Of a DNA stretch of 64,000 bases, positions 4,031 through 60,964 are shown one piece after another. The translations under genes were made by a program, and so were the position numbers. Origin of the DNA: Polytrichum commune (Eukaryota; Streptophyta; Polytrichopsida; Polytrichales; Polytrichaceae); contig OX485808.1 of assembly GCA_950295325.1 (NCBI GenBank), positions 18,744,527 through 18,808,526 of the forward strand, written 5' to 3'. Position 1 is the stretch's first letter. Every line of letters starts with the position of its first letter. The notes under the pieces were generated by a model that saw only the letters and a list, made by a program, of their open reading frames with translations, was not told where the DNA came from and ran no database searches.

Positions 4031-4129
4031 GGAACCTTAGAAAACTCTCGAATGAAGTTGTGGTACTAATTGGCTAGGCCAACAAATGACCTAAGCCCTT
4101 TTGAATCAAGGGCCAATTCTCCTTTTGGA

Positions 4130-4810: not shown

Positions 4811-4884
4811 GACTTGGCCTCGGCTTAAGGCTACTAGCCTTGGCCACAATGCCATCGTCTTACATTCGGTTCGTGGCACAAGTA

Positions 4885-5482: not shown

Positions 5483-5509
5483 AGTGCTAGCTCAAAATAT
5501 TGGAACCCT

Positions 5510-5521
5510 GCTCTGATACCA
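5510..5521 (-). other. Primer binding site, initiator-Met tRNA type (element A)
   Basis: The minus strand reads TGGTATCAGAGC two bases after the 5' LTR end. This 12-mer is the standard plant LTR-retroelement PBS complementary to initiator methionine tRNA. Confidence 0.92.
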
Positions 5522-5523
5522 AA

Positions 5524-40241: not shown

Positions 40242-40545
40242 TGAGGGACACGCCTGGTGTAAGCAACACAGTTGTGGTGGCCATCTCCGACTCGGTGACG
40301 CCTATGGCCTTGTACTTTGCAGGGAGCAAAAACCAAACCCTACCATCGTCAATGCGAAAGGACATCTAAAGGACAGTGTGAATCAAGTCACCGTTGTCAT
40401 CAAAGACCTCTTCCTCGACATGAATTGAGTCTGGGTGGAATCTAAACCTCAGACTAAGGAACGACTCCGCGACTTTGGCTAGACCATCATCTCCTAGAGG
40501 GATCATAAGGGGGATGGAATGGTGCAGTGCTCGGATGGTGGCCAT
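40242..40545 (-). pseudogene. Coding-like relic interrupted by element G
   Basis: Read on the minus strand from ATG at 40545, the frame runs MATIRALHHSIPLMIPLGDD and continues about 100 codons with a single stop (TAG, between HTVL and MSFRIDD) up to the LTR insertion. No family recognised. The N-terminus and mixed hydrophobic/acidic composition look protein-like, but the length is small enough for chance. If real, its 3' part lies beyond the retroelement series. Confidence 0.35.
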
Positions 40546-40726
40546 TGTAGAAGGAATGTAAATGCGAGCACACAGAAGGGAGTGGCCAAATGGGCAATGG
40601 AATTAAGCTGAGCAGAAAGTGGGGCGGTGTATATAGTGATGTGGTTAGAAGGGCATGGCAAGATGGAATCTATGAAAGACGGCGGAGACTTGGATTAGTA
40701 GTGGAATAATAAGCGGACTCATGATA
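40546..40726. other. Unique spacer
   Basis: No ORF or repeat recognised; it ends in the TGATA target site of the solo LTR. Confidence 0.5.
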
Positions 40727-41700
40727 TGTCGCGCACCTCTCCATAAGGAGTGCCCGAAACACCATGGGCACAAGGGGGACCCCGGAGTGACACCCGGGAC
40801 TTGTGGCGCCGTTGGTGAAAGGGCCCAAGTGATCCTAGTGTGGGTGAGGGCCCCGGGCGTTGGGAACGCCTCCCACCCACGGAGACTAGGATGCACAAGG
40901 GTAAGGCCATGAGCTATGCGTAGCTCATGGCGTGGTGATTCTAGAATGCTCAAGAACACCTCAATCGGAGGTGTGAGCTAGGAGTTATGGCCATTTGAGT
41001 GGGGCGCTGTCCCGGGACAGCGCCCTGGTGCAGCAGTGCCTGGGAGTGACTCCCGGGACTGCCAAGGTTCAAAGAGGCATAACGTCCTCATAACTTGCCC
41101 AAATGGGGCAAGTGAGGAGTCCATCAGCATCTACGTGAAACGTAGATGAAGATGGAGTGGTTGGTTGCTCGCATGGGACGTCATACAAGGAAGTTATGAT
41201 GGTCTGAAGCTGCTAGAGGCTTCTTAGCCCAGCGGCTAAGGGAGAATGTCCACTTGGCCCCAACTCTTGGTGGAGAGACAAGAGGTTGGTTGACGGTGGG
41301 GTAGGGGCCCCGTGGAAAGTCCTAGAGGCTTATATGGGTGAGGTGGTGTGGCCTCACCCACCCGAGGCCGAACGGCACGGCCTCCATGGGCTTTGGCCCA
41401 TTGTGAGGCCATAGTTGCCTAGTATGGTTCGGGTTGTTGTAGTGTTGCTCCGGAAATGCGATGATCAACATGGGATTGGACTTCCATGGATGGAAGTCCG
41501 CATCAAAGAAATGGGTTACCGATTAAAGGGTGAGTCCCGAAAGCAAAGTAGGAGGGTTGGTTCCCCTCTATGAGCTATATGGTCCGGGGTAGGAGGAGCT
41601 AACCATTAGCATGGCGGAATGCGAATGGTTAGCGCTCGCAACCTTTGCTAGAATTGAAAATTGGGAAGATTGTCAAGGGGGGCTAGCAAGGGTGGCGACA
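40727..41700 (+). repeat. Solo LTR with TGATA target duplication
   Basis: 974-bp LTR from TGTCGCGC to GGTGGCGACA. TGATA stands at 40722-40726 and again at 41701-41705. No internal sequence is attached on either side. Confidence 0.96.
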
Positions 41701-41990
41701 TGATAGCAACATGATTAAGAACTGAAAATGCAATGCAACAATTATTTAAGTTAGTCATGAACATATGCCAATCCAATGTAGATATATTAAGAACAAACAT
41801 GAGGCTGAATGCCGAGAGCCGTAATTATAAATACACCAGAGACCACGTGAACCATTTAGTGGATGTAAGCGACATTAAAATAGATATTGGCAAATAAGGT
41901 CATAAGAATGACGGCCACCACGAATAATGTGGAGAGCATGATAGTAGCTATGCAATAATAAATTCTAACAAATAGAATGCAACAATGTGA

Positions 41991-42566
41991 TTAACGACGA
42001 AGACGCTTATGGGGACCTTTGCCATTTTTGTCACCGTCATGTTTATGACAATGGTCAATCCCTAAACTATGAACTGCAATGCATCCTGCGCAACCGAGTC
42101 CTTGATGTTTGGGACGTGGGGCACCCCTTGATAGAGATCTAGAGTAAGTTCCCGGTTTAATAACCCCTACTTTAGAATAGGCATGATTATGGAAAGTAGA
42201 CTTGTCCTCTATCATCTTTGCATCATCCGCCTGCAAAGATGGAGACCGTGGATGTGGAGTGTGATCTGCGACCGCCGGAGTAACGGAGCAGTCAGGGGGG
42301 TTGGCAATCTTCATGTTGTTGTCGACTGCAGAACCATCGATGGACAACGTGGTGTGAATTTGAGATGAAATAGGAGCACCTAAAGGAGCAAGACTTGGGA
42401 GACCATCAGTACCCATTGGAGAAGGATATGATGATATGACATGAAGGAATGGGTACAAGTAATGGGGTATTATATACACCAAGGGTAGACACCAATACCC
42501 GAATATTTGACAACCTGGTAGATCAATTAATAGACAATATATATTCATGTAAATAGTGGACAACAT
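41991..42566 (-). CDS. Hypothetical protein, minus strand
   Basis: 191-codon ORF on the minus strand; a more natural start may be the Met in MGTDGLPSLAPLGAP near 42416, since the first ~50 residues are hydrophobic and follow AT-rich DNA. The C-terminal part contains GCAGCIAVHSLGIDHCHKHD and a basic end (GPHKRLRR), a Cys/His cluster of unknown meaning. No domain recognised. It lies head to head with the methyltransferase-type gene at 42788. It could be an exon of a larger gene that also included the 40242-40545 relic. Confidence 0.4.
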   Translation of the reverse strand: MLSTIYMNIYCLLIDLPGCQIFGYWCLPLVYIIPHYLYPFLHVISSYPSPMGTDGLPSLAPLGAPISSQIHTTLSIDGSAVDNNMKIANPPDCSVTPAVADHTPHPRSPSLQADDAKMIEDKSTFHNHAYSKVGVIKPGTYSRSLSRGAPRPKHQGLGCAGCIAVHSLGIDHCHKHDGDKNGKGPHKRLRR

Positions 42567-42787
42567 GTTTCATTTAGGATTAGATGTACTACCATAATAG
42601 TCATTACTTTATCAAAACAATATAGCTGACACCGATTAGGTAGATTAGACACTAGCAGCGCCTTTTGTAGTGTTTTAATGCAGTGTGGATAAACCGAGGA
42701 ATAAATAAAGAAATTGCAGGTTAATTATCTAAATCCAAGATAATAGGAACATAATCATGGCGCCTAGATGCTTGAGTATGGTAAGAG

Positions 42788-43066
42788 ATGAACACTCGGT
42801 CGAGAGCGAGAGCAGAACGAGAAGTGAGGAGGAGTATTGAGAAACAGAGGCGGATTGAGAGAAATGAGAGGTTCGCTACTAGAGATAACGTAGTGACCCC
42901 ATACAAATTGAGGTCAACCATGGGAAGAAAAGGAGATAATTCAAAAAAAGCTACTCACAGTCGTTCAAAGCGATATGTTGAGTCATTTGAAAAGGCGGAG
43001 GTTGCTCCCATTAGGTTATTCTCTTTAGGAGAGGAAGACAACTCTGTGGAAAATGAAGAAATTCAG
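42788..43066 (+). CDS. ParB/methyltransferase-type gene, exon 1 (basic N-terminus)
   Basis: ATG at 42788 opens 93 codons rich in Arg, Glu and Lys (MNTRSRARAEREVRRSIEKQ), ending in EEIQ at a good donor CAG|GTATGC. The basic Arg-rich start suggests a nuclear protein or nucleic-acid contact. The splice phase is 0. That it belongs to the gene downstream is inferred from strand, phase compatibility and shared intron repeat family, so the link is moderate. Confidence 0.5.
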
Positions 43067-43221
43067 GTATGCTCTGGTTACATTACATTCATGTTGAATT
43101 TATTCAAAGTTTATGAGTCCCCGGCATAGTTGGCTTCAAAGGGAATCATTATGTCTTTAGAGGCAGCTCCCCTATACAATCAACATCAATTGTTGAAGAT
43201 ACTTTGTCGCATCATTGCAAG

Positions 43222-43434
43222 TTTGGAACCAAACCTAAACCTGGTTCCGGGCAGAGGCAACAGCAACCAGGAAGCGCAGCATCGAGTGAATCTACTTCGG
43301 AAAACACTAGGCAACAGATCATTCGGAACAGTGAGGACGTTGAGTGCGAAGAGGAAATATTGGGTCGAGAGGAAGCCAACATGGAGACCGATGGCGAGTA
43401 CTCTACAGAAGAGGTCAACCAGTTAAACCAATGA
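43222..43434 (+). CDS. ParB/methyltransferase-type gene, exon 2 (acidic linker)
   Basis: After acceptor ATTGCAAG at 43220-43221 the frame gives FGTKPKPGSGQRQQQPG, then a Ser/Glu-rich segment to QLNQ and TGA at 43432-43434. To join the next exon in phase it would have to leave at GAG|GTCAAC (43413), a weak donor. Otherwise exons 1-2 are a separate short gene. No domain recognised. Confidence 0.4.
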   Translation, partial: FGTKPKPGSGQRQQQPGSAASSESTSENTRQQIIRNSEDVECEEEILGREEANMETDGEYSTEEVNQLNQ

Positions 43435-43619
43435 AAATTATTTCAATTTGTCTTGTTGTTTGGAATGTAAATAATGAAGGGTAGGGTTTCATTCCCCGAA
43501 CCCTGATTGTTTTCCTAAATCTAAATCGTAGAAGGTGGGCTATAGGCATAGATTTCAGGTTCTCCCATTATGTGGTTGTTGAATATATGGGGTTCGGGAC
43601 CGAACCCTTCATTTGGAGG
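43435..43619 (+). repeat. Start of the 85-bp-family repeat in intron 2
   Basis: Contains GGGCTATAGGCATAGATTTC and ATATATGGGGTTCGGGACCG, the second unit type of the arrays seen further right. It is cut at 43619 by the LTR-type insertion. Confidence 0.7.
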
Positions 43620-46600
43620 TGTGGTACTTTTGGGCCACCCCCTTTCGAGGGAGCCTAAAAGTATCACACAAGCCCTTCGGTGAAGGTGGCCTGCATTTGC
43701 AGGCGCCCAAGCCGAACCCGGATGATAGGTGTATAACGTGAGTAGTTAGATTTTTAAGGGAGATTAAATATGCGTCGTAGTACCTCCGGAGGTTAGGCCT
43801 TAGTTTTTTACTAGTGTGGCTTTAAACTCCACTAACCAATTTCATATCTAGTTCTAACCTTAACCTACAACCTATTCTACGCGCAGACGCACCAGCCTTG
43901 AAACCAAGGCAATCCTAATTTGTGAATTGGGATGGTTCTGATACACCCAACCGGGTGTGACTCATACCACCCTAACTCAACGAACGGAATAACGACAATT
44001 TGATAGACCATTCAATTCTTCCTATTTCTTTATTTAGTTCTATTTAGTTTTCTAAGCGGGGGAACTTGGCCTAAGTCCCACCCTTCACACAAATTCCTTC
44101 TTAATTACTTACTTTTGTTTGCACGTCCTAACTTACTACATTAACATATTAGGCATCACCCCTTACCTCGGGTCTCTTGCCAACAAGGGTTTACGATTTA
44201 TTTTGTATGTTTTGATTGTTAAATGTGTTTACACTGGATAGACCACGAAATGCAACTAAATGGGACCAGGGTGACGGGCGACCTGTAGGTTCAACCTGTT
44301 GCGCAATCTTCATAAATTGGGCCATTACTCCCAATCTATGGGGCCAACAACATAATAGTGGATTCGCGGGTCATTAACCCCACCTTTCCACCAACAACAT
44401 TCAGAGTGGTCGTGTCGGTGATTAATCCGACTTACCACATACGAAACTTGCTAATAAATGAAGCTACTACCACAAAACATACCAAGGGCCCCGAAAACAA
44501 TGGAATTGGGTACTCCCTTGGCGGTCAAGTGGTCAAGCCACTTGACCTTACGAGATAGGTGAGTGGGTTTAGAGATGCGTACCTTAGCCGTGCTCCCTCC
44601 AATCCTAAATGGAAGGCTTAAGGTTAGTTAATTTACCTCAATTTTCCTCGGTTGATTTGGGCTTGATGTAGGCCGAGCCGCTACCTCCTTCCTTGCTCCA
44701 CTTTCCGAGCGTCGACCTTGCCTCCTTCTTTGTAACTAGTTTGGTAGTAAGCGTACCTTAGTTAACAATTAAAATATAAAGTGTCATTCTGCCCTGTAAT
44801 TTAATCCTAAGCATAATATTTATACTTAGTGCACCAAATTATTTTTCCAATGATCTAAAAATCACTCTAATCGGATAAGAAATGCAAAAGTTATGAGGGT
44901 TGGAAGTGTGAGGTCGATTCAACCGACCCTTCCAACCCACCTATCTACCTTCTAACTTCAAGAATTCATAGCACATTCCTTACTACTTGGATCTAGGCTT
45001 TCCTTATACCATTGGAAAGCTATGAACAAGCTCTAACTAGAAAAATTATGACATCAGCAGGTTAAGCTAATAGAAATTCAGCGGACTCCTTGTAACACAG
45101 CAGTCAATCAAGAAGGCTTAAACTATGTATCTCGCCTTCAACAATTCATAGCACATTCCTTACTACTTGGATCTAGGCTTTCCTTATACCATTGGAAAGC
45201 TATGAACAAGCTCTAACTAGAAAAATTATGACATCAGCAGGTTAAGCTAATAGAAATTCAGCGGACTCCTTGTAACACAGCAGTCAATCAAGAAGGCTTA
45301 AACTATGTATCTCGCCTTCAACAATTCATATCTAATTCAAATCTTAGTCAAATCAAACGTTCTATATGACCCTGGAGAGATATTAAAAAGATGTATTTGA
45401 TAAAAATATGTGATTAGAAAGGTAAGCCGAAGTGAACCCAGCAGGTCCTCTGTAATGCAGCAGTCAACCAAAAGTTCTCAAACTATGTGTCCCATCTTGC
45501 ACAATTCATATCTAATTCAAATCATGCTCAAATCAAATGTTCTAAGCCATTTTGGAAAGCTACACAAAAGTTCTACTTGGGAAAAATATAATTTCTTGGA
45601 ATTAAAATTCCTATTGGGCTCGCAGGTCTGATCCAGCAGCCGCTACCCACAAGACCACCCAGTTTTTCTACTCCATCTTTGAAAATCCATAACTAATTGT
45701 CATCTCAACCAAATCACAAATGGGAAATGGCTATGGATAGCTATATGAAATCTCTCTAAGAGAAAAATGATAAGTATCTCGTTCTAGCTTTTGAATTAAG
45801 CCTTCAGGGCATTGGCAGATGAGGTCTATAATGCCTCTACTCAAAAATCTACCATCCAACCTACCTCTACAAAAGAAGGAATAATTTTGTTGGTGTGTTA
45901 ATAAACACACAACCTAACTAGGAGAGAGAGAGTAGAGGAGGTTCTCAAGCCTTTCTTTTAGACCATTGAGAATACATGCTAAAGGATTTTTTCCTAACTA
46001 CATTGAAGCAGGGCTTCGCCCAAAAAACTAGAGAAAGAGAGAGAGCTACAAGGTGGAAGGAGGGGTTTTTAAACCCTCTCACAAAAGGGTTGGACCCCTC
46101 CTCCACCGGATCCATTTTTCAAACCCTTTCCCGAAATTTTGGCTCGGGGGTTTTCCCGGTTGAGGTTGCCACCCTCTCGCCGAGGTGGCTCCGACAAAAA
46201 ACCTTTAGAAATCTTTCTAATTTTTCCGCCATCGAGTTGGCAAGGGGGCAAGTGGGCAAGTATCCCCCTTGCTTTCTTTCTTTTTTGTCTTCAAAATTCT
46301 TCACGCCGATTTTATCTTCTTACGTAAAACACCTCCAATAGTCTTGTGTGCCTCACACTAACTAATAAACTAACACTTGCTTAGCTAGCATCTACTAGCA
46401 TTTGCTTAATAACTAGCATCTACTAATATTTGCTTAGCTAGTTGTTTTTACTAGCTAGCACATTTTTTCTACTTTGCTATCTTCTAGCACTACTTAGTTT
46501 CATTTTGACCTTCCTTCTTCTAGGCTAAATGCTAAATGAACTAATTTTTCCTAAATTCCCTATCAATTCTAACTTTTAATGCTAACATTCTAACTAAAGG

Positions 46601-46638
46601 TGATCCCGCAGAGTGGTGGACCACTCAAAGGGTTCACA
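43620..46638. mobile_element. 3019-bp LTR-type insertion with GGAGG target duplication
   Basis: It begins TGTGGTACTTTTGGG at 43620 and ends AGGGTTCACA at 46638. GGAGG lies at 43615-43619 and again at 46639-46643, and joining the flanks restores the canonical repeat text TTTGGAGGTCCCTAAG. TG...CA ends plus a 5-bp target duplication indicate an LTR retroelement product. No internal PBS, polypurine tract, pol domain or second LTR was seen, so it is probably a solo LTR of a long-LTR element or a non-autonomous large derivative. It carries the 180-bp tandem repeats at 44964-45330 and a GAGAGAGA run near 46033. Confidence 0.8.
44850..45800. repeat. ~180-bp tandem repeat series, two units identical
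   Basis: Bases 44964-45149 recur exactly 180 bp later (45144-45329), covering GCACATTCCTTACTACTTGG through TATGTATCTCGCCTTCAAC. Diverged relatives follow (CAATTCATATCTAATTCAAA at about 45322 and 45503) and precede, giving about five monomers. All lie inside the 3019-bp insertion. Confidence 0.85.
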
Positions 46639-49020
46639 GGAGGTCCCTAAGTGGCCTCATTTCAGGTTAGAATCTAACACTTTGAAGCCTCGGCTCTACT
46701 TTGAGAATTCGGGTGCTCACTTTATATATGTCTAGTTGGCCTCATTTCAGGTTAGAATCTTACAATTAGAGGCCTCCTCTCTAGGTTCAGATTTTAGGTG
46801 ATCAATCTATGTTGTCTTAGTTGGCCTCATTTTGGGTTAGAATCTAAGTTTTTGAAAGTGGCATATAGCCATGGACATCAGGTTATCACTTTATGTGGAT
46901 GTCCAATATATGGGTTTCGGGACCGAAACCTTCCTTTGGAGGTCCCTGGGTGGCCTCATTTCAACTTAGAAACGAACACTTTGAAGCCTCGGCTCCACTT
47001 TGAGATTTCGGGCGCTCACTTTATGTATGTCTTGTTGGCCTCATTTCAGGTTAGAATCTTGAATTTGAAGGTGGGCTATAGGCTAAGATTTCAGGTTCTC
47101 ACTCTATGTTGATTTAGTTCGCCTCGTTCAAGGTTAGAATCTAACTCTTTGAAAGTGGCCTATAGGCTTAGATCTCTGGTAGTCACTTTATGTGGCTGTC
47201 CAATATATGGGTTTCGGGACCGAAACCTTCCTTTTGAGGTCCCTAAATGGCCTCATTTCAGGTTAGAATCTAACACTTTGAAGCCTCGGCTCTACTTTGA
47301 GAATTCGGGTGCTAAGTTTATATATGTCTAGTTGGCCTCATTTCAGGTTAGAATCTTACACTTTGAAGCCTCGGCTCTACATTGAGATTTCGGGTGCTCA
47401 CTTTATATATGTGTAGTTGGCCTCAATTCAGGTTAGAATCTAACACCTTGAAGGAAGGCTATAGGCTCATATTTCAGGTTCTCGCATTATGAGGCTGTCC
47501 AATATATGGGGTTCGGGACCGAACCCTTCATTTGCAGGTGAATAAGTGGCCTCATTTCAGGTTGGAAGGTAACGAATGAAGCCTCGGTTCTAGGTTGAGA
47601 TTTCGGGTGCTCACTTTATATAAGTCCAGATGGCCTCATTTCAGGTTAGAATCTAACACTTTGAAGCCTCGGCTCTACATTGAGATTTCGGGTGCTCACT
47701 TTATATATGTCTAGTTGGCCTCATTTCAGGTTAGAATCTAACACTTTGAAGCCTCGGCTCTACTTTGAGAATTCGGGTGCTCACTTTATATATGTCTAGT
47801 TGGCCTCATTTCAGGTTAGAATCTAACACTTTGAAGCCTCGGCTCTACTTTGAGAATTCGGGTGCTCACTTTATATATGTCTAGTTGGCCTCATTTCAGG
47901 TTAGAGTCTTAAGCTTTGGAGCTTTGAGGATGGGCTCTAAGCTTAGATTTCATGTTTTCAGATTATGTGGCTGTCCAATATATGGGGTTCGGGACCGAAA
48001 CCTTCATTTGGAGGTCCCTAGGCTGTCCAATATATGGGGTTCGGGACCGAAACCTTCCTTTGGTGGTCCCTAGGCTGTCCAATATATGGGGTTCGGGACC
48101 GAAACCTTCTTTTGGAGGTCCCTAGGTGGGCTCATTTGAATTTAGAGACTAACACTTTCAAGCCTCGGCTCTACTTTGAGATTTCAAGTGCTCACTTTAT
48201 ATGTGTGTAGTTGGCCATATTTCAAGTTAGAATGTAGAATTTGAGGATGGGCTCTAGGCTTAGATTTCAGGTTCTCATATTATGTGGTTATCCAATATAT
48301 GGGGTTCGGGACCGAAACCTTTTTTGGAGGTCCCTAAATGGCCTCATTTCAAGTTAGAAACTAACACTTTCAAGCCTCGGCTCTACTTTGAGAATTCGGG
48401 TGCTCACTTTATATATGTCTAGTTGGCCTCATTTCAGGTTAGAATCTCACACCTTGAAGGAGGGCTATAGGCTCAGATTTCAAGTTCTCACATTATGTGG
48501 CTGTCCAATATATGGGGTTCGGGACCGAACCCTTCATTTGGAGGTGCCTGAGTGGCCTCATTTCAGGTTAGAAGCTAACGAATGAAGCCTCGGTTCTAGG
48601 TTCAGATTTCGGGTGCTCACTTTATATAAGTCTACATGGCCTCATTTCATGTTAGAATCTCACACCTTGAAGCCTCGGCTCTACTTTGAGATTTCGGGTG
48701 CTCACTTTATATATGTCTAGTTGGCCTCATTTCAAGTTAGAATGTAGTATTTGAAGCTGGGCTCTAGGCTTAGATTTCACGTTCTCAGATTATGTGGCTG
48801 TCCAATGTATATGGGGTTCGGGACCGAAACCTTCATTGGGAGGTCCCTATGTGGGCTCATTTCAACTTAGAAACTAACACTTTCAAGCCTCGGCTATACT
48901 TTGAGATTTCAAATGCTCACTTTATATGTGTGTAGTTGGCCTCATTTCATGTTAGAATGTAGTACTTGAAGATGGGCTATAGGCTAAGATTTCAGGTTCT
49001 CACATTATATGGCTCTAATG
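46639..49020 (+). repeat. 85-bp minisatellite array in intron 2
   Basis: The core unit starts GGCCTCATTTCAGGTTAGAA, continues with AAGCCTCGGCTCTAC and ends GTGCTCACTTTATATATG; starts at 47717, 47802 and 47887 give an exact 85-bp period. It is interspersed with a longer unit containing GTCCAATATATGGG and GTTTCGGGACCGAAAC (a near-palindrome). Apparent ORFs within it are repeat translations. Confidence 0.9.
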
Positions 49021-49104
49021 GTTAGAGGTTAATTACAAAGCAACATTATCAATTTGGGTCAAATGATACTTACTTTGATCTACAATGTGTTGACTCTTTG
49101 GTAG

Positions 49105-49748
49105 GTGCATGCTATATCTTTGCCACCTTCGACACAAGTATCGGAGGGAAAGCTTCCAGAGATGGATATACTAGAGGACGAGCATGAGGTAGAAGAAGAG
49201 TCTCTTGGAGATGATGCTCACTTTCTAGGTAGTGAGGATGAGATTCGGACCAGGCAAAAAGTTAACTCTGTGGCCACGATTACAAGCTTGAGATTTCAAC
49301 CAAACAGTTCTTCGCGATTTAATATTCCGTTGTGCAGATTGATGGCAATGCCAATGGTACGGCCAACTCTGGCATCCGATCTTGCTAAGCTCGAGCAAGA
49401 ATTTGTGCACGGATACAGGGAAGGCGCTTCGGTCTTTTATGTTACAATCACCAATGAAGACGGAAATACCCATGAAGTGACGGAAGCTGATAAAGCTTCT
49501 TGGGGTCCTATTTGGGACGCCAAAAACGCCATTTTCAACTCATTTCTCCTCTCGGATCCAGCGTTGGCTCCATTCACAAATTTGATGTTTTTTGTGTGCG
49601 ACGGCAACCATAGGCGTCAAGCTTGGTTAAATCACATTGACAGACTTCACCGAACTGATGAGGATTGGCATTATTTGGTGGATTCAATTCTCCTTGACAC
49701 AAAGGGGAAAAATGGACTTGTTATGCAAGTCATGCACAACATAAACAA
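49105..49748 (+). CDS. ParB/methyltransferase-type gene, exon 3 (ParB-like domain)
   Basis: Acceptor TTTGGTAG|GTGCATGC; the frame reads HAISLPPSTQVSEGKLPEMD, an acidic linker, then about 150 residues with ParB/sulfiredoxin-superfamily character: a basic/hydrophobic lead (MVRPTLASDLAKLEQEF), a strand SVFYVTIT, and FFVCDGNHRRQAWLNHI. DGNHR followed by Ala is the hallmark nucleotide-binding box of ParB-type domains. It ends ...VMQVMHNIN at AA|GTATGT (phase 2). In bacteria and phages such domains often accompany DNA methyltransferases, which is exactly what lies downstream here. The fold call is from motif recognition, not a search. Confidence 0.65.
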
Positions 49749-49857
49749 GTATGTTCATTCTCTTTTGATATATAATCTTTCATTGAAAATTCAATATGAT
49801 TTCACTTTCTTACTTACTACGATAATCTAATATCTTCCATTTGATTTTTGTATTTAG

Positions 49858-50020
49858 ACATACAGAGGACTCTCATGTGAAGACCAACATTGTCCATACC
49901 CTCTTCAGGGTTCAGAAGTATGGTCTTATGTCAATTGAACAATTCAATGACATTTTGAGTCCAACCGACCTCAAAAAGGGCAAGAAGTCTCAGAAGACTT
50001 GGTATTCGTTACCATTACAT
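49858..50020 (+). CDS. ParB/methyltransferase-type gene, exon 4
   Basis: Acceptor TATTTAG at 49851-49857. The phase-2 join gives KHTEDSHVKTNIVHTLFRVQ and continues to KKGKKSQKTWYSLPLH with donor CAT|GTATTT, phase 0 with the next exon. An alternative donor TTG|GTATTC lies at 50002 but is out of phase. Helical, no motif recognised; it probably extends the ParB-like module. Confidence 0.55.
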
Positions 50021-50089
50021 GTATTTACAAATTTCATATTTCAGGTGCATCACGGAATAGTCCTAAAATATGTGAACTTTGATGGTGGG

Positions 50090-52280
50090 CTATAGGTTAA
50101 GATTTCAAGTTCTCACATTTTGTGGATGTCCAATATATGGGGTTCGGGACCGAACCCCAATTAGAAGGTTCCTAAGTAGCCTCATTTCAGGTTAGAATCT
50201 AACACTTTGAAGCCTCGGCTCTAGTTTGATTTTTCACATGCTCACTTTATGTTGGTTTAGTTACCTTCATTTCATGTTAGAATGTAAATCTTTGAAAGTG
50301 GCCTATAGGCTTAGATTTCAGGGTCTCATTTTATGTGGGTGTCCAATATATGGGTTTCGGGACCGAAACCTTCCTTTGGAGGTCTAGAAGGTCACATTTT
50401 GAAGCCTCGGCTTCAAGTTTCACATTACAGGTGCTCACTTTATATTTATCTAGTTGGCCTCATTTCAAATTAGAATCTAACAATAAGAGGCCTCGGCTCT
50501 AAGTTCAGATTTAAGGTAAACACTTTATGTTGTTTTAGTTGGCCTCATTTCAGGTTAGACTCTAACTCTAAGTGGCCTCATTTGAACTTAGAAACTGGCA
50601 CTTTGAAGCCTCCGCTCTAGTTTGAGATTTCAGGTGCTCACTTTATGTAAGTCTAGTTGCCACATTTCAAGTTAGAATCTAAAATTTTGAAGCCTAGGCT
50701 CTAGTATGAGAATTTGGGTGCTCACTTTATGTTGGTTTGGATGGCCTCATTTCAGGTTAGAATCTAACACTTTGAAGCCTCGCCTCTTGTTTGAGATTTC
50801 AGGTGCTCACTTTATATAAGTCTAGTTGGCCTCATTTCAGGTTAGAATCTAACACTTTGAAGCCTAGGCTCTAATATGAGAATTCGGGTGCTCACTTTAA
50901 GTTGTTTTAGTTGGCCTCATTTCAGGTTAGAATCTAAGTCTTTGAAAGTGGCCTATAAGCTTAGATATCAGGTTCTCACATTATGTGGCTGTCCAATATA
51001 TGGGTTTCGAGACCGAAACCTTCCTTTTGAGGTCTAGAGGGTCACACCCTGAAGCCCCGGCTTCAAGGTTCAATTAAAGGTGCTCACTTTATATATATCT
51101 AGTTGGCCTCATTTCAAGTTATAATCTAACACTTTGAAGCCTCGGCTCTAGTTTGATATTTCGGGTGCTCACTTTATATATGTGTGTTTGGCCTCTTTTC
51201 AGGTTAGAATCTAACACTTTGAACCTTCGGCTCTAGTTTGATTTTTCACATGCTCACTTTATGTTGGTTTAATTAGCTTCATTTCAGGTTAGAATGTAAA
51301 TCTTTGAAAGTGGCCTATAGGCTTAGATTTCAGGGTCTCATTTTATGTGGGTGTCCAATATATGGGTTTCGGGACCGAAACCTTCCTTTGGAGGTCTAGA
51401 AGGTCACATTTTGAAGCCTCGGCTTCAAGTTTCACATTACAGGTGCTCACTTTATATTTATCTAGTTGGCCTCATTTCAGGTTAGAATCTAACAATAAGA
51501 GGCCTCGGCTCTAGGTTCAGATTTAAGGTAAACACTTTATGTTGTTTTAGTTGGCCTCATTTCAGGTTAGACTCTAACTCTAAGTGGCCTCATTTGAACT
51601 TAGAAACTGACACTTTGAAGCCTCCGCTCTAGTTTGAGATTTCAGGTGCTCACTTTATATAAGTCTAGTTGCCACATTTCAAGTTAGAATCTAACATTTT
51701 GAAGCCTAGGCTCTAGTATGAGAATTCGGGTGCTCACTTTATTTTGGTTTGGATGGCCTCATTTCAGGTTAGAATCTAACACTTTGAAGCCTCGGCTCTA
51801 GTTTGATTTTTCACATGCTCACTTTATGTTGGTTTAGTTAGCTTCATTTCAGGTTAGAATCTAAGTCTTTGAAAGTGGCCTATAAGCTTAGATATGAGGT
51901 TCTCACATTATGTGGCTGTCCAATATATGGGTTTCGGGACCGAAACCTTCATTTTGAGGTCAAGAGGGTCACATTTTGAAGCCTCGGCTTCAAGGTTCGA
52001 ATTACAGGTGCTCACTTTATATATATGTAGTTGGCCTCATTTCAGGTTAGAATCTAACACTTTGAAGCCTCGGCTCTAGTTTGAGATTTCGGGTGCTCAC
52101 TTTATATAAGTCTAGTTGGCCACATTTCAGGTTAAAATCAAAGACATTGAAGCCCTGGATATAGGTTCAGATTTCAGGTCTCACTTAATGTTTTGGATTT
52201 GATGGCCTCATTTCAGGTTAGATTCTAACAATGTGAAGCCTCGGCTCTAGGTTCAGATTTGGGGTGCTCTCATTTGTCTA
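50090..52280 (+). repeat. 85-bp minisatellite array in intron 4
   Basis: Same family and orientation as 46639-49020, with both unit types. A block of roughly 1.0-1.1 kb is itself duplicated: ACATGCTCACTTTATGTTGG and the following units recur near 50230 and 51246. It occupies nearly the whole intron between exons 4 and 5. Confidence 0.88.
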
Positions 52281-52381
52281 GCTCTAGTTCAGTTCTTTTG
52301 TCCAAAACATCTTGTCCAACTTATTAATTTCATTTTCATTTCAAAATTTGGTTTCCTCGTTCTTATTCTCTCTTTGTGCAG

Positions 52382-52573
52382 CATGAGCTGGGTCTCGCTG
52401 CCGACGAGGGTGCACGTCAGCTTGTGGAGCAATCAGAAGGAGAAGTCTCCCCTGCTGACAAGGCGGCTGCGATGAAAGCCGCAGTTGAGAAGAGATCTCT
52501 GGCACTTCGCATGAAAATGGGAAAATTGGTTGCTGTGGCGAACCCGGAGCTTACCGACGGTTGGCTACGTGAG
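52382..52573 (+). CDS. ParB/methyltransferase-type gene, exon 5
   Basis: Acceptor TTTGTGCAG, donor GAG|GTACGC, exactly 64 codons, phase 0 both sides. It reads HELGLAADEGARQLVEQSEG and ends in ELTDGWLRE. Ala/Glu/Lys-rich helical segment; no known motif. Confidence 0.65.
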
Positions 52574-52656
52574 GTACGCACCCTGATCCTTTGTCCATAT
52601 CAATCTTTTAAGCTTATCCGTTTGACTAAGGAACTCACAAGAGCTCTGTCTTTCAG

Positions 52657-52928
52657 ATTGAGCGACATTACACGTTAAACTCACTTTCCCCGGACCTCAA
52701 CTTAGAGAAGTTGCAGCTCATTGCAACTTCAAGGGCGTCTCCAGCAATGAAAATAAAATGGCTAGAGTACTTTAATTCATCTGCTTCCACTCGTGAGGCC
52801 CGAAAGCTACCTCCCAAGCCTATCAACGAAGATAAATTGGCAAATTTCTTGGCAAAGGCTTGTTTCTGGGCAGGAATAAGTCCACTGCTTCTATTCAATT
52901 TTCAGTTCATTGATTTCATCTTTGGCAT
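52657..52928 (+). CDS. ParB/methyltransferase-type gene, exon 6
   Basis: Acceptor CTTTCAG, donor CAT|GTAATT, leaving two bases that are completed by the next exon. The text begins IERHYTLNSLSPDLNLEKLQ, continues with MKIKWLEYFN and ends ACFWAGISPLLLFNFQFIDF. A helical region of unknown function. Confidence 0.62.
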
Positions 52929-53011
52929 GTAATTTACACAACTATCATTCTTTATTTCATCGACTTGATTTAGAAATTGGTCCAGCTGATGCTTATTTTC
53001 TTGCTTAACAG

Positions 53012-53227
53012 ATCTCAGAACAGGCCAGTCTCATTTTTGACGAGACCATGCGTCAAGACCGAGTTCCTATCAACATGAATATTGCCAGTGTATATCGAAG
53101 ACTGTCGCATGAAGTTATGGGACCATGCCTTGAGCACCTACTTCAGAGGACAAGATTCCTTCAAAAAAAGTGACGAGTTTGTTGGATTTAACGGAGCTGA
53201 CCTAGTTGTCCGCCGAGTTCTTTTTCG
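53012..53227 (+). CDS. ParB/methyltransferase-type gene, exon 7 with in-frame TGA
   Basis: Acceptor TTGCTTAACAG at 53001-53011, donor TTTTTCG|GTGCGT. In the phase required by exons 6 and 8 it reads SQNRPVSFLTRPCVKTEFLS, T, stop (TGA 53076-53078), then ILPVYIEDCRMKLWDHALST and on to FVGFNGADLVVRRVLFR. The stop could be an Arg CGA codon changed by C-to-T. The alternative frame starting ISEQASLIF is open longer at first, but cannot join the following exon. Confidence 0.58.
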
Positions 53228-53346
53228 GTGCGTCTCTAATCTTTAAGGACTTTTCATTAATTTCAGTAATTGGTTCAGTCCATATTCTTTGTTTTGCTAG
53301 TTCGGAAGTTGTTGATGTTAATGTTATGTGCTATTTCGTAACACAG

Positions 53347-54032
53347 GTACTTTAAGTACGAGCTTTTGGCGAAAGGAGCTATTTCCAAAGATGACCTTCC
53401 TGTATTCTTGAACACATGGCTTGATAGATCAAACTCAACGTGCATGTTCTCGGCTCTTCAAGAACGCACGTGGACAAGTTCTCACCTTACCGGCGGTGCC
53501 TGCTATCTTGATTGCGCTTTAAGTTTCACTCCTTCTTTTGAGACTGAGCTCAAGAAATCAAGGGAGGCTGTAGGTGAGTCTGGAATTGAAATGGTTGACT
53601 TACAGGCCATAGAAGATGAAAATGAGAGGGCAAAGGCAATGAAACGAAGAGGACCGAAAGAAAGCGCTGAGGGTCAAGGAAGCTGAGGAGAGAGCTGACC
53701 AAAAAGAGCGGGAGAAGGTGCAGAATTCGTTGGATAAGTCCACTAGAAAGGGGAAAAATAAGATGAACCCCCCTCCGGAGCCACAAGGTAAGAGTCCGGT
53801 TGCTCCAAGTCCCACATATGAATCTGGTTCTCATGCTCCAACATTTTCTAGAGGCACAAAACGCGACTCGTCCTACGAGCAGTTGAGTCAAATACCTATT
53901 ATGACATCTGGGGAGGAGCTCGACATCCATATTGAAGAGCTCATTCTCAACTCCTCATTGGACGACGTTCTTGGCGGTGACACGGATGAATTCACCCCTT
54001 CCTACAACGACTTGAAAACATTCATGCTCAAG
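53347..54032 (+). CDS. ParB/methyltransferase-type gene, exon 8 with apparent frameshift
   Basis: Acceptor TAACACAG. It reads YFKYELLAKGAISKDDLPVF, then SALQERTWTSSHLTGGACYL, and then a charged coiled-coil-like stretch. Near 53655 the frame must shift by one base: the initial frame ends QGS-stop at 53686, whereas the +1 frame gives EDRKKALRVKEAEERADQKE and runs to TFMLK at donor AAG|GTACTG. Either a small indel or an undetected mini-intron explains this. The Cys-containing SHLTGGACYLDCALSF block looks conserved in style but is not a motif I can name. Confidence 0.58.
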
Positions 54033-54129
54033 GTACTGCTCTTCCTTTAAATTTATGCATTTCAATCTTGTCAATCCAATGGTGTGACCAGTAGAGTTAG
54101 AAAACTTGAGTATTTGCTCAACCTAGAAC

Positions 54130-56272
54130 CGAGACTTCAAAATGTTTGATTCTAACCTGAAATGAGGCCGATTAGACTTATATAAAGTGAGCACCCGATA
54201 TATGAACTTAGAGCAGAGGCTTCAAATTGTTAGATTATAACCAGAAATGAGGCAAACTAGATATATAAAGCGAGCACATGTAATTTGAACCTTGAAGCCG
54301 AGGCTTCAAAGTGTTAGATTCTAACCTGAAATGAGGCCAACTAGATTTATATAAAGTGAGCACCCGAAACCTCAACATAGAACCGAGGCTTCAAATTGTT
54401 AGATTATAACCTGAAATGAGGCCAACTACATATATATAAAGTGAGCTCCTGTAATTTGAAGCTTGAAGCCGAGGCTTCAAAATGTGACCCTCTTGACCTC
54501 AAAATGAAGGTTTCGGTCCCGAATCCCATATATTGGACAGCCACATAATGTGAGAACCTCGTATCTAAGCCTATAGGCCACTTTCAAAGACTTAGATTCT
54601 AACCTGAAATGAGGCCAACTACATATATATAAAGTGAGCTCCTGTAATTTGAAGCTTGAAGCCGAGGCTTCAAAATGTGACCCTCTTGACCTCAAAATGA
54701 AGGTTTCGGTCCCGAAACCCATATATTGGACAGCCACATAATGTGAGAACCTCGTATCTAAGCCTATAGGCCACTTTCAAAGACTTAGATTCTAACCTGA
54801 AATGAGGCCAACTAAATCAACATAAAGTGAGCACCTTTAATCTGAACCTAGAGCCGAGGCCTCTAATTGTTAGATTCTAACCTGAAATGTGGCCAACTAG
54901 ACATATATAAAATGAGCACTTGAAATCTGAACCTAGAGCCGAGGCTTCAAATTGGTTGATTCTGACCTGAGATGTGGCCAACTAGACTTATATAAAGTGA
55001 GCACATTAAATCTGAACCTAGAGCCGAGGCCTCTAATTGTTTGATTCTCACCTGAAATGTGGCCAACTAGACATATATAAAATGAGCACTTGAAATCTGA
55101 ACCTAGAGCCGAGGCTTCAAATTGGTTGATTCTGACCTGAAATGTGGCCAACTAGACTTATATAAAGTGAGCACATTAAATCTGAACCTAGAGCCGAGGC
55201 CTCTAATTGTTTGATTCTAACCTGAAATGTGGCCAACTAGACATATATAAAATGAGCACTTGAAATCTGAACCTAGAGCCGAGGCTTCAAATTGGTTGAT
55301 TCTGACCTGAAATGTGGCCAACTAGACTTATATAAAGTGAGCACCCGATATATGAGCTTAGAGCTGAGGCTTCCAATTGTTAGATTATAACCTGAAATGA
55401 GGCTAACTACATATATATAAAGTGAGCTTCTGTAATTTGAAGCTTGAAGCCGAGGCTTCAAAATGTGACCCTCTTGACCTCAAAATGAAGGTTTCGGTCC
55501 CGAAACCCATATATTGGACAGCCACATAATGTGAGAACCTCATATCTAAGCCTATAGGCCACTTTCAAAGACTTAGATTCTAACCTGAAATGAGGCCAAC
55601 TAAAACAACATAGAGTGAGAACCTGAAATCTTAGCCTATAGCCAACCTTCAAATTCCAGATTCTAACCTGAAATAAGGCCAACTAAAACAACGTAAAGTG
55701 AGCACCTTAAATCTGAACCTAGAGCCGAGGCCTCTAATTGTTAGATTCTAACCTGAAATGAGGTTAACTAGATATATATAAAGTGAGCACCTTTAATTTG
55801 AACCTTGAAGCCGAGGCTTCAGGGTGTGACCCTCTTGACCTGAAAATGAAGGATTCGGTCCCGAAACCCATATATTGGACAGCCACATAATGTGAGAACT
55901 TGAAATCTAAACCGAAAGCCACTTTCAAAGAGTTAGATTCTAACCTGAAATGAGGCCAGCTAAAATAACATAAAGTGAGCACCCGAAATATGAATTTAGA
56001 GTCGAGGCTTCATATTGTTAGATTCTAACCTGAAATGAGGCCATGTAGACATATATAAAGTGAGCACTTGAAATATGAATTTAGAGCCGAGGCTTCATAT
56101 TGTTAGATTCTAACCTGAAATGAGGCCACGTAGACATATATAAAGTGAGCACTTCAAATATGAATTAAGAGCCGAGGCTTCATATTGTTAGATTCTGACC
56201 TGAAATGAGGCCACGTAGACATATATAAAGTGAGCACTTGAAATCTGAACTTAGAGCCGAGGCTTCAAAGTG
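54130..56272 (-). repeat. 85-bp minisatellite array in intron 8, inverted
   Basis: The complement of the other arrays: TTCTAACCTGAAATGAGGCC and TATATAAAGTGAGCACC recur throughout, with GGTTTCGGTCCCGAAACC-type units at about 54525, 54704 and 55492. A transcript of this gene would carry plus- and minus-oriented copies of the same repeat. Confidence 0.9.
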
Positions 56273-56274
56273 TT

Positions 56275-56605
56275 GATATGAATTTGAGCTTGACTGTGGG
56301 TTGAGGGAATCTGGTTTGGGGGTTAGGAGTTGATATTTGACTGATTATGATTTGAATCTAAGGGTGGGTGAGGGAAGAGGGGATTCTGGTAGGGGGTAGA
56401 TGTATAAAGTTTTGATTTTTCTAAGACTCTGAAATTGAAATGTAGGACTCGTAAGAGGTCTCTCGGCCCCGACACACTCTGTTTAGGGTCTAATATGTTA
56501 GTGATTTTGATATGAATTTGAGCTTGACTGTGGGTTGAGGGAATCTCGTTAGGGGTTAGGAGTTGATATGTGACTGAATTTGATTTGAGTCTAAGGGTGG
56601 CTGGG
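56275..56605 (+). repeat. 234-bp tandem duplication before exon 9
   Basis: GATATGAATTTGAGCTTGAC begins at 56275 and again at 56509, followed in both by TGTGGGTTGAGGGAATCT and GGGGTTAGGAGTTGATAT. The second copy runs almost to the acceptor of exon 9. Confidence 0.82.
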
Positions 56606-56622
56606 GGTTGAGTTGGGTGCAG

Positions 56623-56970
56623 CACTCAAAAGACAAAATCCGGCACTACAAGGGTTCTCCGGAGGACCATCCCTGTTTGGACTTGATTCTTGCAGATATA
56701 CCGGAAGGTCTTCCTGTTCCTGGCATATCAGACCCACCGTCGTCCATTCCCGCTTGGAATCAAGAATCGAAAGAGTGGTTACAACCACTCTTTGACTTTG
56801 CCGACGAACTTCTGCACGACAACGGGGCAATTATTTTGTTTCACCCTTTTCGCATGAGTACGAAGTCCAATATTCTTGGATATTGCAAATCGTATGGTTT
56901 TGCAATTCGGAAAGAGTGGTGGGGAATGAACCGCCTTCATCTCACATCCCCATTAAATCCAGCATCAACT
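56623..56970 (+). CDS. ParB/methyltransferase-type gene, exon 9 (methyltransferase motif IV half)
   Basis: Acceptor TTGGGTGCAG, donor ACT|GTAAGA, 116 codons, phase 0. It reads HSKDKIRHYKGSPEDHPCLD followed by LILADIPEGLP. The position and flanks match the catalytic motif IV of DNA N6/N4 amino-methyltransferases (normally LILADPPYGLP), but the PPY is IPE here. Then come WLQPLFDFADELLHDNGAII and LFHPF, which fit the strand and helix after motif IV. The altered catalytic tetrapeptide predicts weak or no methyl transfer unless the family uses a variant. Confidence 0.66.
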
Positions 56971-57128
56971 GTAAGATAAACCTTATGTCTTCTTGCTGAT
57001 CACCGCATTCAATTTCAATTTAATCCTTGAGGTAGTTCTGAGTATAGACCCACCTAAGTATTATACTCATGCAGTTGTGTTGTTTACTTTGTAAACTAAT
57101 GTTGTTCTTTATGTCTGGTACATTGTAG

Positions 57129-57402
57129 ACCATGAGGTTCGGTATTTCATTGGCGGTCAGGAGCGTGCCGGGGTCACCTGCATCGAAGTTTTCATTTCGC
57201 CTTGTCCCTGCATTGGATCCTTATGGGGTGGATGTTGCACGGGATGATATTCTCCAGAACTTGGTCTCTCGTGAGGACTAGCTAACTAATGGATCCACAC
57301 CATGGCGAGGGCCTCGTGAAAAATCCGTGCTTCTAGTGCAAATGCTAATTGAAGCATGTAGCTCCCCATGGGATATTATTCTAGACTGCACGGCAGCGAC
57401 CG
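57129..57402 (+). CDS. ParB/methyltransferase-type gene, exon 10 with in-frame TAG
   Basis: Acceptor ACATTGTAG, donor ACCG|GTATGT (phase 1). It reads TMRFGISLAVRSVPGSPASK and on to LVSRED, stop (TAG 57279-57281), then LTNGSTPWRGPREKSVLLVQ and MLIEACSSPWDIILDCTAAT. RGPREKS matches the HP-EKP box (motif X area) and DIILDCTAATG is the AdoMet-binding motif I that follows it in beta-class enzymes. Confidence 0.66.
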
Positions 57403-57512
57403 GTATGTCTTTGTAATCTTCCATTTCAGTTGGTTAATCGTTAATATTGTTTTGGTCTACAAAATTCATAGTTATTTTTGTACTAAGTTTTTTCCAACTT
57501 CTTTATTTGCAG

Positions 57513-57720
57513 GATCTTCCATTCATGCATGCCGCAATTTGCACCGTCACATTGTGGCATTAGAGGCTGATGTTGATATTTTTGAGGCCTTACTTGCTCC
57601 ATTGATTATCTCTAGAGCAGCCTCTGAAGTCACTCTTGAAGACCGTGTCACCAGTTTAGAGGATCCTGAGGGTGAAGATATCCCCGTAGAGAGGATTGTG
57701 AAAAGATCTCGGTTTACTAA
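57513..57720 (+). CDS. ParB/methyltransferase-type gene, exon 11 (AdoMet motif I continuation)
   Basis: Acceptor TTATTTGCAG; the phase-1 join completes ATG-G-SSIHACRNLHRHIVAL. EADVDIFEALLAPL gives the acidic residue after strand 2 that binds the AdoMet ribose. Donor AA|GTGAGT. The order IV...X...I identifies the permuted class. Confidence 0.66.
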
Positions 57721-57817
57721 GTGAGTAAGGTCCACAAATTCTCTTACCTGTGTTATGTTTTTTGCTGTCATTTCTTATAAAGTTGAGTTATGAACATGGT
57801 ACCATTGGCATTTGCAG

Positions 57818-58106
57818 ATGCGATAAATTGGGCTATCCTATTCACCGGCCTTTTTTTTGTGACCCTAAATTCTATCCCAGCCCTCCAAAGTCTTGGCAAC
57901 TTCCTACATATGCAAATGATATTGCTAATCAACTAGCTGGAGGTTCTTATCAGACTTTTACATCTAAATATCGTCCGGGAAGAGTTTTAGAGTTTTTGGA
58001 TATAGAAGCTTTAGAATCTGATGGTCAGGCCTCCTCTGATGCAGATATTACTGATTCTAGAATGTCTTCATCATCAGGTGATCACAGTGATTCGGATATG
58101 ATGTAA
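57818..58106 (+). CDS. ParB/methyltransferase-type gene, last exon
   Basis: Acceptor GCATTTGCAG. It reads CDKLGYPIHRPFFCDPKFYP, a mid region (YANDIANQLAGG), and a Ser/Asp-rich tail ending DHSDSDMM and TAA at 58104-58106. No domain. The downstream DNA is AT-rich, as expected for a 3' UTR. Confidence 0.65.
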
Positions 58107-58890: not shown

Positions 58891-60964
58891 CTCACGAGAT
58901 CTGCTCACCGCTCACCGCTCACATCGTAGCATTCCTGGGATCCGCTCTCCCCAGGTGAGGTGGAAGAGCACCGGGTCTGTTAGATCCGGACGAGGCCAGT
59001 CCCTTGTTCCGCGGACCTCGGATCGGTCCCGGACTCCAGACAGAGCTCGGACGCCGATAAGGCATCAAACTTCGGATCGAGAGGCAACTCCGAGTAGGGG
59101 TAAGGCCCCTATGACCCAAGCCTCGCCATCGTCTCCTCCGGACTGCCAAATGGTTAGCCCATTCCCTCCGCCACCCTCAAGGGCGGCCTCCAACAGGGAT
59201 CCACGGACTGCCTCGATCTCGGGCGGACAGAATCCGGAACAGCGCACCGGAAGCGATCCTTCCCCGATCCAGAGCGTCCGGAGCGTCCGGAAGGGAAGTA
59301 CAGTTTCCAGAACACCAGGTTCCGGAACACCACGGACAGAAGGAGCAAGGGACTCGGAGGATGAGATTGCCCCTTCTCCGAACATGAGGAGGATGCTTAC
59401 GCAACTATAGAAGGCATCGCCAGGAGGGGGCTCATCCGCCGTCAATGAACTCGGCAGCCATTCGAAGGAGGGAGCAGCTCAGAAGAAGCACCGCTCTTCT
59501 TAGCTTAGGATGGTAGTTAGATTAGTTAGGCAGAATAGAGGTAGGAAGATAGGACTTAGGAGTTTTTGAAGATGAGGAATAAAATTCTCCCTTGGATTTT
59601 GTCAGTGGAAAATCCGGATCTTGATCCGGGAAATCCGGGAGGACGGAAGCAGTCAGGGTTTTCTTAAGGGCCACCGCCCTCAGATTGGGGAATTTGGGCC
59701 TCTACTTAAGGCTGAATAAGGAGTTGGAGAAGGGTTTCTTCTCCATTGTTGTATTCTGGTTGCTCCTACTCTAATAAATTCCTTGATTTCTCACTCCTTA
59801 ACTTTTCTTGCTTGATTTTGTGTACGAATGATTCGGAGATCGTTAGCGGGGGGGAGAGAGAGAGAGCACGAGGGATAGGAGTTCCGGATAGGACATGGGA
59901 GAGGAGACCCGGATTAGATCTAGTTATTGCCTTGCGGATCCTCTCTGTGTGTAGTGGGAGGGAAACCTCACTGTTCCGGATGGTTGAGTAACGTCTAGGT
60001 GGGATAGCCGCTGGGAGGATTGGGTGAGATCCGGAAGGGATCCGGACTTACGCCAATCTGATCTTCTGAAGAGGTCCCACCGCCCTTAGACGGACCAATC
60101 CGGAAAGTGGTACGGATCGCCCAGTTAGCTCAAATTGAGTAGAGTCCAAGGTAGTGGTAGTCGGATCGATCCGCCGGAAGGAGGGAAGGACCGGAACAGT
60201 TAGGATTCCGGGTTGGAGGCCATCTCCGGAGTGTAGTGGGAAGGGGACCTCATTGTTCCGGATGTTTGGGTAACTTCTAGGTGAGATAGTCGTGGGGAGG
60301 ACTGGGTAAAGATCAAGAAGGGATCCAAACTTGCGCCAATCTGATCCTCTGAAGAGGTCTCACCGCTTTTGGACGGGACAATCCGGAAAGTGGTACGGAT
60401 CACCCACTTATCCCGTCGAGTTAGATCTCCGAGTGGAATCTGGAATATTCCGGTCGTTGTAGTCCTAAGATATAATCCGGACCTCCCTGTGTAACCTACC
60501 AAGACGGATTTGGCTAATCCGGATTGGTTGTGAGGGAATATCCGGATCCCAATATTATAAGGGACGTCTTCACCGGAAGAAACCACCTATTCTAGAGGGT
60601 AGAACGTAGAGGGGTAAATCTAGACCATAGGGGTGAGTAAGTATTATAGTTAGGACCTAGAGATACAATCCGGAAAGGCAAACTCCGGAAGAAGAAGAGT
60701 GCCCAAAAGACCGAAAGGCCGGAAACCGGAGTTTCCAGAAATTCGGCTAAGGAGTGGAAGATAAGCGGGTACGGAGAGTTCTCGACTTCCTACACTTCAG
60801 AGAATCCCTGGACGATACTAGGGTCATCCGGACAAAACCGGATTAGGCACTTAAAAACGCCAATCCGGATACTTTGGTGTTCACGTGTTCCCACAAACAC
60901 AACATAATGCGGAATTGGAGGAGGGTTATATGTGAGTAGTGAGCGATGAGCAAGAACTTGTGAG
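58891..60964. mobile_element. TCCGGA-rich unit bounded by ~35-bp imperfect inverted repeats
   Basis: The left end 58891-58924 (CTCACGAGATC, then CTCACCGCTCACCGCTCAC) and right end 60930-60964 (complement starting CTCACAAGTTCTTGCTCATC) are inverted relatives with about one base indel. Between them the hexamer TCCGGA and ATCCGG occur dozens of times. A Ser/Pro/Arg-rich ORF (58880-59410: RTSDRSRTPDRARTPIRHQT) and a GAGAGAGA run at 59862 lie inside. It could be a non-autonomous DNA transposon or foldback element, or an LTR-like leader. No transposase seen and the target duplication is not resolved. Confidence 0.45.
59946..60415 (+). repeat. ~270-bp tandem duplication within the TCCGGA-rich unit
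   Basis: GTGTAGTGGGAGGGAAACCTC (from 59949) and GTGTAGTGGGAAGGGGACCTC (from 60232) begin parallel segments that both continue GCCAATCTGATC-TCTGAAGAGGTC and GGAAAGTGGTACGGATC. Identity is high but not perfect. Confidence 0.78.

Follow-up and report, generated by a model that had tools for sequence, protein, structure and literature searches.

A high-copy DNA transposon of the moss Polytrichum commune pairs a probable ParB-like/methyltransferase gene with a divergent transposase-like gene

The window analysed here is a 64,000-nt stretch of the Polytrichum commune genome (GenBank assembly GCA_950295325.1, contig OX485808.1, positions 18,744,527 to 18,808,526, forward strand), which carries at 42,788–58,106 (+) an intron-rich gene with a ParB-like region upstream and a permuted methyltransferase region downstream. 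This gene and its relatives belong to a high-copy DNA transposon with two divergent intron-bearing genes, encoding a transposase-like protein of ~1170 aa and a ParB-like/methyltransferase accessory protein of ~1180 aa, the latter likely to recognise the element's own DNA and to act as a non-catalytic or altered effector. The original prediction, made from the window sequence, raised the possibility of an anciently acquired, 'eukaryotised DNA-modification module'; a unique module of this kind is not supported, the window holding a dead copy of a transposon gene present in high copy number, with a catalytic motif that differs family-wide from that of amino-methyltransferases.

The element has short terminal inverted repeats. 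Two full copies of the window subfamily, A and E (21,037 and 20,026 bp), terminate in CAACGAC[A/G]CTACCGTGTGAGCGG and, read from the opposite strand, in CA[A/G]GAATGCTACGATGTGAGCGG, and are flanked by exact 10-bp target duplications (GTCCCGCTTG for A, GCGGTGGGAC for E). A member of the 42% identity subfamily (~11.6 kb) has related ends (GCTATCTTATGAGCG) and the 11-base string ATCTCCAATGG at both flanks, so that target duplications were seen at the three insertions examined, 10 bp and exact in two and 10–11 bp in the third. Sola1 transposons generate 4-bp target duplications and Mutator-like elements (MULEs) 9–11 bp; at 10 bp the moss element departs from the former and resembles the latter. 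The flanks of copy E match adjoining parts of one repeat in the window (58,941–60,084 and 60,073–60,897) with an overlap of 12 bases, so that window positions 60,073–60,084 look like the unoccupied target of copy E. Both the window element and copy E (flanks in stretches L033 and L035) abut copies of this repeat (58,941–60,897), which may point to a target preference. Position 41,699, where matches of copies A and E to the window start, was considered as the left end of the element and rejected, as comparison of A with E adds ~4.4 kb.

In copy A the partner gene lies on the opposite strand as two exons (stretch L018, 4,432–2,333 and 2,172–766; 700 and 469 aa), starting ~1.3 kb from exon 1 of the ParB-like/methyltransferase gene and transcribed away from it. 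By tblastn, it is 98–99% identical in copy E, pieces lie near copy C, and codons 1–106 of its first exon match window 40,545–40,228 (94%). Relatives were identified in stretches L038 (76% subfamily; 54% identity) and L039 (42% subfamily; 49%), and at ~50% in two further stretches, L022 and L032; the divergent gene pair is thereby also present in two of the three other subfamilies sampled (42–54% identity). That the partner gene encodes the transposase is suggested by where it lies, by the ends of the element and by what may be a DDE/CxC..CxH pattern. The CxC..CxH cluster, near the C-terminus, is SWIM-like as in MULEs, but Pfam gave no MULE or SWIM hit for this gene at E<=1. A scan of the viral collection with the partner gene returned no relative.

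At the window locus the ParB-like/methyltransferase gene comprises 11 exons joined in compatible phases, from an ATG at 42,788 to a stop at 58,106 (+), with a product of ~1180 aa. DGNHRRQAW (exon 2), LILADIPEG (exon 8), RGPREKS (exon 9) and DCTAATGS (exons 9/10) lie where originally placed, and the proposal of a plant nuclear gene with introns is borne out. Compatible phases were also correctly called; nine internal donors are GT, and that of exon 5 is GC in this model. Introns 1, 3 and 7 contain long tandem repeats and intron 1 a 3-kb insertion as well. The features of the element, including long terminal repeat (LTR) insertions, are:

40,242–40,726 (-): stranded 5' part of the divergent transposase-like gene, between two retroelement LTRs; 99.4% identity to the left part of copy A
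40,727–41,700 (no strand): retroelement LTR inserted within the element, from window self-comparison for repeats
41,699–43,620 (+): element resumes, with intergenic region, exon 1, start of intron 1 and one palindrome at 43,593; 99% identity to copies A and E
42,788–43,066 (+): exon 1, start codon and basic N-terminus
43,621–46,638 (no strand): other repeat inserted in intron 1; 95–99% matches in stretches near copies C and F
46,639–49,104 (+): remainder of intron 1, a tandem array with 9 of the 18 TTCGG-GA/TC-CCGAA palindromes
49,105–49,748 (+): exon 2, encoding an acidic N-terminus plus the ParB-like region (VCDGNHRRQAW, MHNINK), from family matches
49,858–50,044 (+): exon 3, continuation of the ParB-like region (TEDSHVKTNIVHTL)
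50,045–52,381 (+): intron 3 tandem array, 4 palindromes
52,382–52,573 (+): exon 4, from the gene model
52,657–52,869 (+): exon 5, GC donor in this model
53,012–53,227 (+): exon 6, frame change; copy B open in a single frame throughout
53,347–54,032 (+): exon 7, frame change, charged linker; copy B open in a single frame throughout
54,033–56,622 (-): intron 7 tandem array, an inverted version of the repeat in introns 1 and 3, 4 palindromes
56,623–56,970 (+): exon 8, methyltransferase motif IV region, DLILADIPEG
57,129–57,402 (+): exon 9, RGPREKS, start of motif I (DCTAATG) and in-frame stop
57,513–57,720 (+): exon 10, remainder of motif I with the acidic S-adenosylmethionine (SAM)-ribose position (ALEAD)
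57,818–58,106 (+): exon 11 and stop codon
58,890–58,937 (no strand): right terminal inverted repeat, closing the element on this side; the endpoint is shared by copies A, E and F

The window copy of the gene is a dead one: exon 9 is interrupted by an in-frame stop missing from copies A, E and F, exons 6 and 7 carry frame changes where copy B reads through each in one open frame, and the element is broken up by LTR retroelements and another repeat. In the spliced window query ~27 residues of exon 6 (VYRRLSHEVMG...) are out of frame, which touches the Pfam and full-length protein searches but not the methyltransferase queries.

Searches of the moss's own genome (407.8 Mb, 406.1 Mb of it in seven contigs) gave at least 150 scored places for exon 2 (from 1232 first-look candidates) and at least 150 for exon 8 (from 1129). 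LEAFY domains were also detected in this genome (4 and 6 exon matches), two copies having aspartate in YLFDLYEQC, the residue typical of mosses, and the seven large contigs agree with a moss of n=7. The 149 exon-2 places classified by identity (27 at >=90%, 19 at 79–89%, 86 at 60–78% and 17 at 42–44%) are spread over all seven large contigs and both strands. Of these 149, 90 are followed within 20 kb by an exon-8 place in the same orientation (median 5.6 kb), compared with a mean of 0.6 in 200 random placements (maximum 4) and 2 in the upstream control; the exons thus form one gene genome-wide, and, as far as DNA can tell, do not come from unrelated transcripts, the outcome originally named as refuting the fusion. 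In the protein database, exon 2 matched 330 clusters at E<=1 among 455 candidates (best 120 of the 330 listed), while the full-length protein gave no match at E<=1 in 7999 scored candidates; the exon queries worked because this database represents the relatives as single exons. The gene is under purifying selection: median ratios of nonsynonymous to synonymous substitution rates (dN/dS) are 0.235 in exon 2, from the 37 of 171 pairs whose dS lies at 0.1–2, and 0.128 in exon 8, from 22 of 45 pairs, those too close or saturated being left out. Three copies (L042–L044 with L053–L055) have exon 2 at dS 2.4–2.5 from the window and exon 8 at dS 0.03–0.04, and left and right halves have therefore been exchanged between subfamilies.

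Over its last 372 aa the protein matches Pfam N6_N4_Mtase (9.3e-7, passing the curated threshold), PHROG methyltransferases (8.8e-7) and DpnA structures (1.6e-6). Phage methylases match with a best E of 2e-7 over ~60% of the query (35 phage records reach E<=0.01, with coverage below 80% in every case); this is the database-wide value, E-values from pairwise BLAST of the window against phage methylases being computed over five sequences. Motif IV lies upstream of the REKS box, followed by motif I, confirming the permuted beta-class methyltransferase that had been read from the window. Motif I and the acidic residue after the next strand are kept (DCTAATGSS...VALEAD and DLTCSTGAS...LAFEGD). Motif IV, in an alignment of 60 rows (window plus 59 relatives) of which two are gapped there and 58 counted, reads D-x-P-E-G in 49; its fourth position is glutamate in 54 and aromatic in none, the catalytic (D/N/S)PP(Y/F/W) of N6/N4 amino-methyltransferases being absent from these rows. 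The 42% member has QFPDG here, retaining RGPxxKS and motif I. Amino-methyltransferases hold the flipped base with the aromatic residue at this place, and METTL14, with a comparable change in this motif, is inactive; loss of the aromatic residue and this parallel make ordinary amino-methylation doubtful and favour a non-catalytic or altered role over self-methylation. GISDPPSS, following DIPEG and chosen as motif IV by some BLAST alignments, was rejected, as it varies in the family where D-x-P-E-G is kept. Beside the 42% member, on the opposite strand, a second and decayed family copy (L050 reverse complement, 4,094–6,937) has DLPEG at motif IV.

For the region encoded by exons 2 and 3 the name ParB-like is a working one, plausible but not proven, based on the order of its motifs and on a weak match to the profile of YbdM-type ParBs. 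Comparison of the region with these by hhalign gave a score of 23.9, equalled in 1 of 100 column shuffles (reversed-profile control, 12.9), while the scores were 18.9 for canonical ParBs (equalled in 4 of 100) and 16.0 for a methyltransferase control (28 of 100). In the alignment DGNHR, VDSILLD and MHNINKHTEDSHVKTNIVHTL stand opposite DGFHR, a strand ending in D, and RHNRARGxH..MSxIVxEL, so that the moss protein shares with YbdM/IbrB-type proteins the DG[FN]HR, the strand ending in D, a box with N, a conserved SH and a helix, but has ~40 extra residues ahead of DGNHR. The order of strands and helices in a low-confidence AlphaFold2 model is compatible with ParB. No ParB match to this part was found among PDB sequences, or in Pfam with single or aligned members; NCBIfam DGQHR_dnd_1 was matched by 1 of 91 members (0.13), and in the phage collection tblastn of one divergent member yielded one hit, at E 0.9. 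For the ParB-like plus methyltransferase fusion originally proposed, the exon linkage is strong evidence of a single gene and the methyltransferase family was recovered by the suggested profile search; evidence for the ParB fold itself is weak.

All copies of the palindromic core TTCGG-GA/TC-CCGAA in the window are inside the element (10 in intron 1, including the one at 43,593 before the insertion, and 4 each in introns 3 and 7; 18 in total), with none in the 48 kb outside it. The palindrome of the window subfamily is GGTTTCGG-GA-CCGAAACC. Other subfamilies have their own: TGTCTCGG-TC-CCGAGACA in L038 (5 copies in intron 1), ACCCTGTGCGTTAACGCACAGGGT in L039 (6 copies between exon 2 and the partner gene) and TTTACGGACGCGCGTCCGTAAA in L037 (4 copies at 178–542 of the stretch; they lie >8 kb upstream of exon 2 and may fall outside the element). 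Further palindrome arrays (20–28 copies; arms TTGGGTCG, TACGAACG and GGCCTCGG), unassigned to any element, are found in L020 (right flank of copy A), L026 and L032.

The accessory protein would probably use its ParB-like part to recognise DNA of its own element, perhaps at the internal palindromes. Its methyltransferase fold, retaining the SAM site, would be an effector, non-catalytic or of altered chemistry, by which the element evades silencing or has its ends organised for transposition. Bacterial ParB proteins load at palindromic parS sites, which makes the palindromes the boldest lead. A more elaborate and rather doubtful version would have the 18–24 bp palindromes, lying in introns and between the two divergent genes, serve as subfamily-specific parS-like operators, on which the cognate ParB-like part loads and spreads, with the methyltransferase part, without amino-methylation chemistry, as a SAM-sensing anti-silencing or synapsis effector, and with the left half (partner gene and ParB-like part) and the right half (methyltransferase) swapped among subfamilies as specificity and effector modules.

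Alternatively, the protein may bind the transposon that encodes it and methylate it as an active DNA amino-methyltransferase, the role suggested for the algal proteins in PMC12477816. Conservation of the fold and SAM motif, purifying selection on exon 8 and an architecture like that described there for Ectocarpus are in keeping with this, but glutamate in 54 of 58 sequences at the fourth position of motif IV, where none is aromatic, and QFPDG in the 42% member examined make such activity unlikely. A domesticated host gene with many paralogues would fit the purifying selection and the exon–intron structure kept in relatives; it is, however, largely refuted by the 10-bp target duplications, and dispersal over seven large contigs and both strands, terminal repeats, a divergent partner and decayed copies leave it very little room. 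We also give scant credence to descent from an endogenised large DNA virus: fusions of ParB and methyltransferase domains are common in phages (PMC12704722), but scans of IMG/VR with the ParB-like and methyltransferase parts gave no relative and the ends are transposon-like.

Several results count against the transposon reading preferred here, or against parts of it. In L037, the 80% member sampled, tblastn detected no partner gene within the 9 kb of upstream sequence, and the gene's sole Pfam hit at E<=1 is a weak one to MYND (0.92), with no MULE/SWIM family. None of the 17 exon-2 places in the 42% group has a linked exon 8, because the exon-8 matches listed stop at close relatives; exon 8 is present in the one 42% member examined directly. 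Young copies have higher and noisy dN/dS (0.27–0.83 for exon 2, up to 1.12 for exon 8). Regarding the ParB-like part, Pfam ParB families were matched by 0 of 91 members and DUF1015 by 5 of 91 (best E 0.061), the commonest weak NCBIfam match is an unrelated helix-turn-helix model (19 of 91, best 0.016), the probability stated by hhalign for the YbdM-type match is 4%, and the AlphaFold2 model of exon 2 alone is poor (mean predicted local distance difference test score, pLDDT, 44). Of the 15 control stretches, 6 likewise contain repeated palindromes, while 1 of 9 element stretches (L050) has none; the positive controls include L026 (2–12 kb upstream of copy F), L025 (with the window-subfamily palindrome) and L032 (with a partner-gene relative).

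The combination of domains, originally called unexpected in an intron-containing nuclear gene, has precedents. According to PMC12477816, the 21.5-kb Ectocarpus element Sola1-1_Ec32 carries a gene for a 1104-aa ParB-like plus methyltransferase protein opposite its transposase, and green and red algal transposons with similar proteins are cited. The moss element resembles Sola1-1_Ec32 in both domain kinds, protein length (~1180 aa), strand opposite the transposase or transposase-like gene and size (20.0/21.0 kb compared with 21.5 kb); the algal proteins were compared by their published description. It differs in residing in a land plant, in its 10-bp duplications, in a partner unrecognised by Pfam, and in having at least 150 exon-2 places in several deep subfamilies. 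A survey of the ParB-CTPase fold reports fusions to N6_N4 methyltransferases as more frequent in phages (PMC12704722); the moss gene shares with these the two domain kinds in a single polypeptide and the mobile DNA, but is eukaryotic and has introns, a linker of several hundred residues and an altered catalytic motif. Among the best hits of searches in an open-licence literature library there was no land-plant report of a ParB-methyltransferase transposon gene. Genes of this kind in algal transposons are already known (PMC12477816), while the land plant host, high copy number, altered motif IV, mosaic halves and palindrome arrays are new here. An algal curiosity is thereby extended to a land plant, where it exists in many copies and its numerous natural subfamilies invite comparison, and the altered but conserved catalytic motif together with the internal palindromes makes transposon self-recognition or epigenetic self-marking directly testable.

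Outside the element, window 1–41,700 carries nested, partly inverted LTR retroelements, including 229–236-bp tandem near-triplicates, one with a reverse transcriptase/RNase H domain. In a part of this nest without a second copy in the window, an open frame of 1506 aa (6,245–10,765, +) has no Pfam match. To the right, the repeated segment 61,105–63,727 contains an open reading frame (62,572–63,237, -) with a NIF-type (CTD-like) phosphatase domain (Pfam 1.2e-10); this stretch recurs in L020 (77–93%) and L025 (96%) and is probably part of another mobile element.

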